From Burkholderiales bacterium (GTDB lineage: Bacteria; Pseudomonadota; Gammaproteobacteria; Burkholderiales; Burkholderiaceae_C): 37,938 nt of DNA. The DNA is taken from contig JANYCG010000042.1 of assembly GCA_025360385.1 (NCBI GenBank), positions 1 through 37,938 of the forward strand. The letters are read 5' to 3'. How positions within the stretch are numbered: the stretch's first letter is position 1; the number at the start of each line of letters is the position of its first letter. Positions 33,035 to 36,538 of the stretch are shown piece by piece. The notes beneath the pieces are model-generated. The model was not told the DNA's origin and searched no databases. It saw nothing but the letters and a program-made list of their open reading frames with translations. A program made the position numbers and the translations under genes.

Positions 33035-34282
33035 ATGACAGGGACTTTCACCACTTTACGCAATACAAACACGATCCGGGCACGGGCAGAGGCTTTGCTG
33101 GCCCGTGCTCGCGCCGGGCAGTCTGCGTTCTTCACCGTCAATGACAGTGCCATGGCTTCGGTTGCCCAAGGGGTGGCCGACACCACGCGCCAGCATTACC
33201 CCAGCCTGGAGATCCCCTACCACAGCCGCTGGCGGCATTTTGAGGCGGGTGGCCTGAACCGGCTGGCGCGTTTAAATGACGAGCTGGGCAAAGTCTCGGC
33301 CGCCAAACGGGCCCGCGCGCAGATTGACCTGGTCATCGTCAGCGTGCTGCTGGACGCCGGTGCCGGCCCTGGCTGGCGCTACTTGGACGCCCGCAGCGGC
33401 CAGACCTTCACCCGCTCCGAAGGCCTGGGTGTGGCCAGCTTCAACGCCTTCACGACCGGCCTGTTTTCCAGCAAACCGACGCAGCCCTGCCAGGCCGATT
33501 CCGCTGGTTTGCGGGCCCTCACGGCGCGGCAATTGGGTGACGCGTTTCAGGTCAGCAAAGACAATTTGCTGGTCGGCCTGGAGGGCCGCGCCGCCCTGCT
33601 TCGCCGCCTGGGCGAGGTGATGGCAGCCCAGCCCGGCGTGTTTGGCGGCGCAGGGGGGCAATGCAGGCCAGGGCGGCTGTATGACCACCTGCTGGCAGCC
33701 GCCGCATCCGACCCAGACAATACCGCTGCGCCGTCGATTGCCGCCCACGACATCCTGTCCACCTTGCTGGCGGCCTTGTCGTCCATCTGGCCCGCGCAAA
33801 ACGTCATTCAAACTGACGCTGGCCCAGTCGCATTGGGTGATTGCTGGCCGCATCCAGCCGTGCCAGGCGACGGCTGGATGCCCTTCCACAAACTCTCGCA
33901 ATGGCTGACCTACTCGTTGCTGGAGCCGTTTGAATGGGCCGGTGTGACCGTCAACGGTCTGGACGCCCTGACGGGCCTGCCCGAGTACCGCAACGGTGGC
34001 CTGTTGCTGGACGGCGGCGTGTTGCAATTCAAGCAAGCCGACCTGGCAAGCCAGACCTACCACGCAGGCGACGCGCTGATCGTCGAATGGCGCGCCCTGA
34101 CCGTCGCGCTGCTGGATGAACTGGCCCCGCTGGTGCGTGCCACCTTGGGGCTGACCGCCGCACAAATGCCGCTGGCCTGTGTGCTGGAAGGCGGCACCTG
34201 GGCCGCAGGTCGGGCGCTGGCCCAGCAATTGCGCGGTGGCTCGCCACCCTTGAATATTGAGAGCGACGGAACCGTTTTTTAA
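33035..34282 (+). CDS. urc4: URC4/urg3 family protein (DUF1688)
   Basis: Urc4 is required for uracil use as nitrogen source through the URC pathway; its exact reaction is not settled. The 415-residue product is recognisable from SLEIPYHSRWRHFEAGGLNR, VSVLLDAGAGPGWRYLDARS, GLGVASFNAFTTGLFS, DGWMPFHKLSQWLTYSLLEP and FEWAGVTVNGLDALTGLPEY, with VEWRALTVALLDELAPLVR near the end. It lies 65 bp after urc1. No clear Shine-Dalgarno precedes the ATG; a repeat-like palindrome lies just upstream. After it the pyrimidine cluster is interrupted by a restriction-modification pair before upp. Confidence 0.9.
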   Translation: MTGTFTTLRNTNTIRARAEALLARARAGQSAFFTVNDSAMASVAQGVADTTRQHYPSLEIPYHSRWRHFEAGGLNRLARLNDELGKVSAAKRARAQIDLVIVSVLLDAGAGPGWRYLDARSGQTFTRSEGLGVASFNAFTTGLFSSKPTQPCQADSAGLRALTARQLGDAFQVSKDNLLVGLEGRAALLRRLGEVMAAQPGVFGGAGGQCRPGRLYDHLLAAAASDPDNTAAPSIAAHDILSTLLAALSSIWPAQNVIQTDAGPVALGDCWPHPAVPGDGWMPFHKLSQWLTYSLLEPFEWAGVTVNGLDALTGLPEYRNGGLLLDGGVLQFKQADLASQTYHAGDALIVEWRALTVALLDELAPLVRATLGLTAAQMPLACVLEGGTWAAGRALAQQLRGGSPPLNIESDGTVF

Positions 34283-34319
34283 GCAACTGGCAGGCATCGA
34301 TTTCATTTTTTTCTACTCA

Positions 34320-34343
34320 AAGGTACCACTCTCTCTAAGGTAC
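34320..34343. promoter_or_regulatory. Repeat upstream of the methyltransferase gene, possible operator/promoter
   Basis: In the 94-bp AT-rich gap between urc4 and the methyltransferase, AAGGTAC occurs at 34320-34326 and 34337-34343 (17-bp period). The same bases also give an inverted repeat GTACC-N11-GGTAC (34323-34343). Restriction-modification genes are often autoregulated from such sites by the methyltransferase or a controller protein; no controller gene is present here. Function is a guess. Confidence 0.35.
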
Positions 34344-34376
34344 AGTGTGAGTCAACTGACGGTCGAACGACGATTT

Positions 34377-35666
34377 ATGACGCCATCTCAAACAACCAAA
34401 AAGCGCCCCGTTGGCATAGACCTTTTTGCGGGCGCTGGCGGTATGTCGCTTGGTTTCGAGCAAGCCGGCTTTGATATCGCGGCAGCCGTAGAAATTGACC
34501 CTGTCCACTGCGCCGTTCACGAATACAACTTTCCAAAAACAACGGTGATATGTGCCAGTGTTGTTGATATTTCGGGTGAAGAAATTAGAAAAAAAGCGGG
34601 TTTGGATAAAATTGATATCGACGTGGTTTTCGGAGGCGCCCCTTGCCAAGGCTTTTCACTTATCGGCAAACGTGCGCTGGATGACCCACGCAACCAACTT
34701 GTCTTTCATTTCGTCCGGATCGTCAAAGAACTACAGCCAAAATACTGTGTCTTTGAAAATGTCAAAGGCTTAACGCTTGGCAAGCATGCAAAATTCTTGC
34801 AAGAACTCATTGATGCAATTGAGGAAGCTGGTTACGACATTTTGCAGCCCTACCGAGTTTTGAACGCAGCTGACTATGGCGTGCCACAAGACCGTCATCG
34901 CCTGTTCCTGATCGGTACACGACGCAGCCTGAAAATTCCTGACTATCCTCTGCCGGTCAAACCCAGGGTTACTGTTTGGGACGCGATTGGAGATTTGCCC
35001 GATGCGGATGAATTTGCAGAGTTAAACAGCACTGACGAAGTATCCACTGCGTGGACAAGCAAATCCCGCTACGCACGCAAACTTCGCGCGCTGCAACCCG
35101 ACGCCAGCAACTTTGCTTATGAACGCAATTTCAACAAAAATTTGCTTTCGTCGAGTTTAAGAACCGAGCACAGCGCCCTTTCACGGACTCGCTTTCTTGC
35201 CACTGTCCATGGAAAGACTGAAGCGGTAAGTCGGTTTCGCAAACTCCCTCCCGACGGGCTATGCAATACCTTGCGCGCGGGTACTGACAGCGCCCGCGGC
35301 GCATTCACATCGCCACGACCCATACATCCTTTTCTGCCACGGGTCATCACCGTTCGTGAAGCCGCGCGCCTGCATTCTTACCCAGATTGGTTTCGCTTTC
35401 ACATGACCAAATGGCACGGTTTCCGTCAGATCGGCAACAGCGTTCCCCCCTTGCTGGCACGCGCCGTTGCCAGCAAAATTATCGAAGCCATGGATATCCA
35501 ACCCACGAAGCCATGGCAAGTGATTCAAACAGGCGATCCCGCGTTGTTGTCGTTCTTTATGGGTGATGCGGCTCGCTACTTTCGAGTGCCACGCAACACT
35601 ATCGCTCAGCGCATCCGCAAACCAGACTCAAACCAAATATCTCTTCTGGACGAAGCTTATGCCTGA
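34377..35666 (+). CDS. DNA (cytosine-5-)-methyltransferase of a type II restriction-modification system
   Basis: The product (429 residues from ATG 34377) has the ordered C5-methyltransferase motifs. These are I GIDLFAGAGGMSLGFEQAGF (SAM binding), IV GGAPCQGFS with catalytic Cys90, VI ENVKG (127-131), VIII DYGVPQDRHRLFLIGTR, then a variable target-recognition region, IX ITVREAARLHSYPDWF and X RQIGNSVPPLLARAV. About 45 residues follow motif X. The reading frame extends back to 34257, but that part overlaps urc4 and precedes the family start. It overlaps the endonuclease gene by 8 bp. The stretch is visibly more AT-rich than flanking pyrimidine genes, which fits horizontal acquisition. The recognition sequence cannot be read from the protein. 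Confidence 0.93.
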   Translation: MTPSQTTKKRPVGIDLFAGAGGMSLGFEQAGFDIAAAVEIDPVHCAVHEYNFPKTTVICASVVDISGEEIRKKAGLDKIDIDVVFGGAPCQGFSLIGKRALDDPRNQLVFHFVRIVKELQPKYCVFENVKGLTLGKHAKFLQELIDAIEEAGYDILQPYRVLNAADYGVPQDRHRLFLIGTRRSLKIPDYPLPVKPRVTVWDAIGDLPDADEFAELNSTDEVSTAWTSKSRYARKLRALQPDASNFAYERNFNKNLLSSSLRTEHSALSRTRFLATVHGKTEAVSRFRKLPPDGLCNTLRAGTDSARGAFTSPRPIHPFLPRVITVREAARLHSYPDWFRFHMTKWHGFRQIGNSVPPLLARAVASKIIEAMDIQPTKPWQVIQTGDPALLSFFMGDAARYFRVPRNTIAQRIRKPDSNQISLLDEAYA

Positions 35667-36480
35667 AGAAAAGTCATTGACACATTCCGGCCAACCGAAC
35701 CGGTACCAAGCCATCATTGCCCGCGTCTTCGCAGACCACTACACAAAAAAGGCGACAGAGTTTGAATTCACGCGAGATGAATTCGTTGGCATCGCGGAGC
35801 GACTCGGTATTGAATTGCCCAAAAATATCGGTGATGTTGTCTATTCTTTTCGTTACCGCAACGAACTCCCGCAAAGCATCAGAAAAACCGCCGTTGATGA
35901 CCTCGAGTGGATCATTGAGGGTGCCGGTCGCGCTCGTTACCGGTTTAAACAGGTTCAACTCAATCGAATCGTTCCCCGCGAAGAACTTCTGACCATCAAG
36001 ATCCCGGACGCTACGCCTGAAATCATTTCAGCCAACGCGCTGGGTGATGAACAGGCACTTCTGGCCAAAGTTCGCTACAACCGACTTGTCGATATTTTTT
36101 TGGGCATCACTGCTTTTTCGCTGCAAAACCATCTGCGTACCACCGTCAAGAACCTTGGTCAAATAGAGATCGACGAGGTCTATGTTGGCGTTGACCGCCA
36201 CGGGCGGCAATTTGTGGTTCCAGTTCAAGCCAAGGGCGGGACGGACAAACACGGTGTCGTTCAAACGCAGCAGGACATACTTTGCTGTGCCCAAAAATTT
36301 CCTTATTTAATCTGCAGGGCAGTTTCAGCGCAGTTCATGAGTGCAGGCCGCATCGCCATGTTTGAACTGACGGTGCAAGGTGGCGGCGTCAAAGTTGTTG
36401 ACGAAAAGCACTATCAGCTTGTGCCAGCGGCGGGTATATCGGCCGGGGATCTCCAACAGTACGCATCTTTCGGAAATTGA
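35659..36480 (+). CDS. Predicted type II restriction endonuclease partner
   Basis: This 273-residue protein starts at the ATG at 35659, overlapping the methyltransferase stop by 8 bp. The N-terminal half (about residues 20-100) looks like a small DNA-binding domain ([20 protein letters not shown], then [17 protein letters not shown]). The central part reads [20 protein letters not shown] followed by [11 protein letters not shown]. An acidic pair (Asp172/Glu173) and Gln190-Ala-Lys192 match a PD-(D/E)xK-type nuclease core with Gln in the second acidic position. The endonuclease role is inferred from this motif and the coupling to a methyltransferase; no known enzyme was recognised. The coding sequence is AT-rich like its partner. 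Confidence 0.72.
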
Positions 36481-36538
36481 ATCTTTCGGCCCAGCCCATT
36501 TCTCGCTTGCGAGTCCCATCCATACAAGATCAAACACT

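Follow-up and report, generated by a model that had tools for sequence, protein, structure and literature searches.

The question raised by this locus was what kind of protein is encoded downstream of a cytosine methyltransferase gene in a Burkholderiales bacterium, and whether its glutamine-containing motif is compatible with a restriction endonuclease. The DNA analyzed, called the window here, was the 37,938-nt stretch of contig JANYCG010000042.1 (GCA_025360385.1), read on the forward strand. The original prediction had described the gene as an unrecognized restriction endonuclease that is the partner of the methyltransferase. As predicted, its translation is 273 amino acids long with D172, E173, Q190, A191, and K192. 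The two genes are as follows:

34377..35666, + strand: M, C5 cytosine DNA methyltransferase, 429 amino acids (PF00145, TIGR00675, and PADLOC PDLC03326)
35659..36480, + strand: R, probable Type II restriction endonuclease, 273 amino acids (PADLOC PDLC03404; linkage to M homologues in relatives)

Family assignment and methyltransferase linkage

M matched PF00145 in Pfam (E 6.2e-73, residues 14–369), leaving about 60 amino acids beyond the Pfam domain, as well as TIGR00675 in NCBIfam (E 4.8e-61) and PDLC03326 (MTase_II) in PADLOC-DB 2.0 (E 3.6e-175, 8–404 of 429). The ORF coordinates place the start of R inside the 3′ end of the M gene, with an 8-bp overlap. When the bacterium's own genome was searched with the R protein, the only match was the R gene itself.

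R matched the PADLOC-DB 2.0 model PDLC03404 (REase_II, "Type II restriction enzyme") with an E-value of 2.8e-122 over nearly its full length, 12–269 of 273 aligning onto 2–259 of 260. The same model matched all 57 of the aligned family members scanned, so PADLOC-DB already lists this family among the Type II endonucleases. The description of R as unrecognized, and as not placeable in a known family, was not supported. At the level of sequence profiles, R is thus assigned to a Type II restriction enzyme family; the name of the model is an annotation rather than a test of function. PDLC03404 probably originates from REBASE; in the available parts of the PADLOC papers REBASE was found in the reference lists only, and the searches run here connected the model to no particular characterized enzyme. 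Searches of other collections with R gave no families at E ≤ 1 in Pfam, nothing significant in NCBIfam (one sub-threshold IS1595 match, E 0.16), in PHROGs (best E 0.14), or among PDB sequences (best E 1.1), and a profile of 57 R sequences had no matches to PDB chains at E ≤ 10. No close match to a characterized non-nuclease family appeared in the Pfam, NCBIfam, PADLOC, or PHROGs searches, and no enzyme name or specificity for the family was found in the titles and opening lines of abstracts in the literature.

An M homologue was found in 83 of the 84 relative loci, and in 82 of them it lay upstream on the same strand; the exceptions to the upstream position were L058, where it is on the opposite strand, and L079, which starts at a contig end. 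Together with the 8-bp overlap, this linkage bears out the pairing of R with the cytosine methyltransferase.

A third gene accompanied the pair at some loci. With a threshold of phmmer E ≤ 1e-6 and one Vsr as query, a Vsr-like ORF was detected in 25 of the 84 relative loci. Of these ORFs, three lie on the other strand and a few scored low. None was found in the 3.8-kb region of the window that surrounds R. The presence of Vsr-like ORFs in the relatives fits a genome carrying 5mC.

M homologues were also found apart from R. One is gene 44 of Mycobacterium phage Cueylyss (L203:2965-4284), with 58.6% identity over 96%; R homologues were not found in phage records, and the Cueylyss enzyme is possibly a counter-restriction methylase. 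Another is carried by Rhizobium leguminosarum plasmid pRlX5 (L193:4001-5194; 54.5% over 90%), and no Rhizobium was present among the plasmid records carrying R. The pRlX5 gene is apparently solitary, with a gyrase/topoisomerase-A-like ORF, identified by eye, downstream. The occurrence of these two homologues without R is what might be seen for a self-protecting or orphan methylase.

Predicted fold and active site of R

The structure of R was predicted with AlphaFold2 using an alignment of 57 rows with 45–83% identity to R; the model had a pLDDT of 87.1 and a pTM of 0.79. The features assigned from the model and the alignments are these:

35695..35973, + strand: predicted N-terminal winged-helix domain, residues 13–105 (separate model; winged-helix chains as top rows)
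35830..35859, + strand: candidate DNA-reading helix, residues 58–67 (third helix of the N-domain model)
35992..36438, + strand: predicted PD-(D/E)xK-type nuclease domain, residues 112–260 (AlphaFold2 model and structural matches)
36049..36051, + strand: E131, putative motif I acid in the first core helix (invariant; assigned by analogy to Hjc E9)
36172..36177, + strand: D172-E173, motif II acid or acids in a core strand (invariant in 74/74)
36226..36234, + strand: Q190-A191-K192, motif III, QxK (Q190 and K192 in 74/74, A191 in 73/74)
36274..36276, + strand: D206, in the helix after motif III (invariant acid; candidate motif IV or replacement carboxylate)

The elements of the nuclease core in the model are a helix (130–140), three strands (151–163, 167–178, and 184–192), a second helix (200–213), and a further strand (221–226). 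Foldseek found nothing in the PDB at E ≤ 0.001; its best match was the Cas4-like ACE1 (3.5e-3), with unrelated chains (SAS-6) close behind. A second comparison (VIA), performed over Foldseek's own matches, gave only Z-scores below 8. Its top rows, all on model residues ~115–254, were EndoMS 5gke (Z 7.6, rmsd 3.5, 96 residues), the unknown-function chain 3fov (Z 7.6, rmsd 3.2, 94 residues), Hjc 1ob8 (Z 7.5, rmsd 3.5, 100 residues), NucS 2vld (Z 7.5, rmsd 2.9, 91 residues), Hjc 1gef (Z 7.2, rmsd 3.6, 99 residues), and BsaXI 8w2p (Z 7.0, rmsd 4.1, 133 residues). We take the EndoMS, NucS, Hjc, and BsaXI chains to be members of the PD-(D/E)xK superfamily; for Hjc this membership is given in the accessible part of PMC1913061, which also supplies the basis for the analogy between Hjc E9 and E131 of R. 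Because the Foldseek values exceeded 0.001 and all Z-scores were below 8, we base the fold call on the secondary structure, on the position of the motif residues in the expected elements, and on the consistency of the rows. Although all of the structural matches are weak, the model supports a core with a PD-(D/E)xK-type nuclease fold and motifs I–III. The predicted structure was thus of the kind that the original prediction called for.

The prominence of EndoMS/NucS and Hjc among the best rows (Z 7.2–7.6, rmsd 2.9–3.7, 91–103 residues, with 3fov tied at 7.6) would suit a DNA-repair or recombination nuclease of the Hjc or EndoMS type. These rows share with R only what is common to the superfamily core, and a sporadic distribution, carriage on plasmids, and linkage to M are unlike a repair gene; we regard a repair function as highly improbable.

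The putative N-terminal DNA-binding domain was likewise supported. Modeled alone (residues 12–108), it had a pLDDT of 90.0 and the order H-E-H-H-H-E-E, and its VIA rows were mainly winged-helix proteins, MCM8 being the best (Z 6.6, rmsd 3.0, 68 residues), with Fur and Rok also present and none at Z ≥ 8. In helix 58–67, G58, D59, Y62, R65, and R67 were invariant in the 57-row alignment, and this helix is a plausible DNA-reading face in the predicted model.

Conservation of the active site was examined in a wider set. A GTDB genome scan with R gave 83 relatives, of which 80 were kept; by record titles they belong to Proteobacteria, Verrucomicrobia, Acidobacteria, Cyanobacteria, Bacillota, and others. 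From the 80 loci, 74 ranges were listed, and the resulting alignment consisted of R from the window plus 73 relatives. L070, whose matched range contains a stop, was dropped, and six other loci, which are truncated, split, or gapped, were left out. E131, D172, E173, Q190, K192, and D206 were invariant in all 74 sequences, as in the 57-row alignment, and A191 was present in 73. Because D172, E173, Q190, and K192 never varied, the motif is not a chance arrangement. The first position of motif III was Gln in every sequence and never an acid.

ORF matches from further loci had QAK in 44 of 48 cases; these are not 48 independent sequences, because several contigs occur twice and one match comes from the window itself. 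The remainder were two paralogues, one with EAK and one with SGK, and two more fragments of the split gene in L057. The EAK paralogue (P0003; L039:2178-3111, + strand) lies in a Phenylobacterium MAG upstream of Vsr, M, and R. It shares 37% identity with R over 207 aligned columns (E 1e-39), matches PDLC03404 too (E 2e-50), and has the canonical E-A-K at the Q190–K192 columns and Asn at the D206 column. A search with P0003 among 398 genomes of the phylum gave five matches, own R included, all QAK, and a protein search of viral contigs gave no further EAK-type paralogues. The SGK paralogue is more distant: a 278-residue open frame on a viral contig (L182:796-1629, + strand), it keeps GQIEIDEV and has S-G-K at motif III and Leu, a non-acid, at the 206 column. 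In the R homologue of L191, residues ~138–200 containing the motif II stretch read differently, as if by one or more local frame changes, and the sequence matches the family again afterward; it is evidence neither way.

D206 is 13 residues after K192. In swapped-carboxylate enzymes such as those of the Cfr10I, EcoRII, and SsoII type, motif III does not begin with an acid, and in Cfr10I and EcoRII an acid is found at this same spacing. R resembles these Type II enzymes in having an acid 13 residues after the lysine; it differs in that the acid is Asp rather than Glu, and it had no solved-structure sequence match below E 1. The paralogue with a Glu motif has Asn at 206, and the one with a Ser motif has Leu. 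Because a leucine at 206 in the SGK paralogue does not suit a simple Glu/Asp exchange, a carboxylate swap in R is not established and the role of D206 is a hypothesis.

The glutamine itself has precedent. PD-QxK is described as an Mrr-like active-site variant in the accessible text of PMC11347163, which cites Bujnicki and Rychlewski (2001) for it, and that of PMC12707154 states that MspJI and EcoKMrr carry it. Thus, the Gln that the original prediction singled out is real and invariant, and it is a known variant rather than a new arrangement. From the same partial sources, R is like the Mrr-type PD-QxK enzymes of the EcoKMrr, MspJI, and BisI families in its motif III Gln (PMC11347163; PMC12707154).

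A Gln lacks a metal-binding carboxylate and the distant paralogue has S-G-K, as might be expected if R were a catalytically impaired or nicking relative and the module were retained for an epigenetic or addiction role. Decay would not be expected to leave Q190, K192, D172, E173, E131, and D206 invariant over 45–83% identity and many phyla. In addition, MspJI and BisI enzymes, which are also PD-QxK, cut DNA in vitro according to the available parts of the same two papers (PMC11347163; PMC12707154). We consider an impaired enzyme very unlikely.

EcoKMrr is also the closest parallel in architecture, combining an N-terminal winged helix with PD-QxK (PMC12707154, in part), as does R in its predicted model. 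This likeness is the main point for a modification-dependent (Type IV, Mrr-like) nuclease that sits beside M by chance and attacks differently methylated foreign DNA. The linkage to an M homologue (83 of 84 loci, with M upstream and on the strand of R in 82) is a Type II pattern, and in this respect R is the opposite of the modification-dependent Mrr-type enzymes. A Type IV enzyme does not require a cognate methylase. Unlike Mrr-type enzymes, R had no match to the Pfam Mrr models; the 57 family members matched eight families at E ≤ 1, none above chance level and none of them Mrr, and a search of the bacterium's own genome with Mrr_cat matched contig C285 only, not R. Because of the M linkage, the absence of a Pfam Mrr match, and the location of the Mrr_cat match on another contig, a Type IV role for R is disfavored, and we judge it very unlikely.

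Insertion and spread of the gene pair

M and R lie in a segment that differs in composition from its surroundings:

34283..36538, + strand: inserted low-GC cassette between the DUF1688 gene and upp (G+C contrast; upp loci of relatives)

The G+C content of the cassette is ~49–53%, vs. ~58–67% around it. The DUF1688 gene (33035-34282) is intact, matching PF07958, a family of unknown function, with E 1.8e-146. Among 20 upp loci of relatives, DUF1688 and upp were adjacent with no insert in four (L147, L149, L151, and L159), and the genomes with this uninterrupted arrangement were G110, of the same genus, G001, G009, and G300. The spacer between DUF1688 and upp is short in G110, a genome that has its own R copy on another contig. 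The empty site was seen in a minority because, within the fetched flank, DUF1688 was not found beside upp in the other 16 loci.

Carriers of R are sporadic, comprising 7 of 299 genomes of the bacterial family, this one included. R was present on 22 loci of viral contigs and in 65 plasmid records, 39 from Klebsiella and 17 from Salmonella; mobility typing of the 65 gave 57 mobilizable, 7 non-mobilizable, and 1 conjugative. The plasmids include the 5.2-kb Klebsiella plasmid pB1019 and a 5.4-kb Citrobacter copy typed as non-mobilizable, and one plasmid copy has an annotated Vsr upstream. In E. coli p11A17045A_B_KPC, a 15.7-kb mobilizable KPC plasmid, the module (L083:3728-5780) lies beside Tn4401, and the same protein accessions are found on a Citrobacter plasmid (L082). 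A search of the E. coli genome collection for DNA nearly identical to that of the Citrobacter plasmid pair gave no match.

From the gene identities, the linkage, the predicted fold class, the invariant motif, the insertion, and the spread, we conclude that R and M very probably form a Type II restriction-modification system that consists of two genes and is mobile. The PADLOC Type II models PDLC03404 and PDLC03326 are the known system most like it, matched near full length by both genes. A similar kind of mobile module, with an m5C methylase, a restriction enzyme, and Vsr, is described for phage KL3 in the accessible part of PMC3091744; its endonuclease has an EcoRII-C domain (PF09019) that R does not match, and no Vsr-like ORF was found within the 3.8 kb surrounding R. 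ScmA of Caulobacter (PMC12907096) and PcaRCI, whose components appear under headings as Dcm and McrBC homologues (PMC8989522), were considered as analogues from the available parts of those papers and set aside.

In such a restriction-modification system, M would mark a short DNA site with 5-methylcytosine. R would bind the same site, presumably as a dimer with Mg2+ and with its winged helix recognizing the sequence, and its PD-QxK nuclease would cut both strands only where the site is unmethylated. Incoming phage or plasmid DNA would be destroyed and the host spared.

Site avoidance and significance

Candidate recognition sites were sought as palindromes avoided by carriers. In the first comparison, CCGCGG was the most depleted of 378 palindromes in carrier sequence, with observed/expected ratios of 0.29 in the bacterium's own sequence, 0.29 in G018, 0.48 in 17 loci taken as beta-proteobacterial by record titles, and 0.58 in all 84 loci. 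Two non-carriers gave 0.96 and 0.79, but their G+C content is 66–68%, vs. 57–60% in carriers. In whole genomes, the median CCGCGG/GGCGCC ratio was 0.434 for 7 carriers vs. 0.518 for 63 non-carriers (one-sided Mann-Whitney p 0.049, the motif having been chosen out of 378). Three non-carriers were below the bacterium's own genome. When 377 motifs were compared between 7 carriers and 5 non-carriers, with lower-GC non-carriers added, none separated the groups convincingly, the best reaching 7/792 relabellings. CCGCGG had t −0.6 in this 12-genome comparison, and neither this nor the 70-genome counts held it up as a candidate site.

XorII/CGATCG is a Vsr-linked m5C system. CGATCG was considered as a possible site here (see PMC4390886); in the 12-genome comparison, carriers did not clearly avoid it more than non-carriers did (t −0.6). 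If the system was acquired recently, no avoidance would be expected, so these tests say little either way. In agreement with the original statement, they assigned no specificity to R.

It is also conceivable, if rather doubtful, that R represents a Type II lineage specific for unmodified DNA built on an Mrr-type chassis, a link between Type IV and Type II enzymes in which D206 replaces the Glu.

The Gln in R is an active-site variant that has been described before, and a Type II restriction endonuclease model already exists for the family. The family is widespread, also on plasmids, and in the searches run it had no Pfam model or solved-structure sequence match. Determining the cleavage site of R would allow dozens of systems to be annotated together, and it could show how an Mrr-type nuclease became blocked by methylation.
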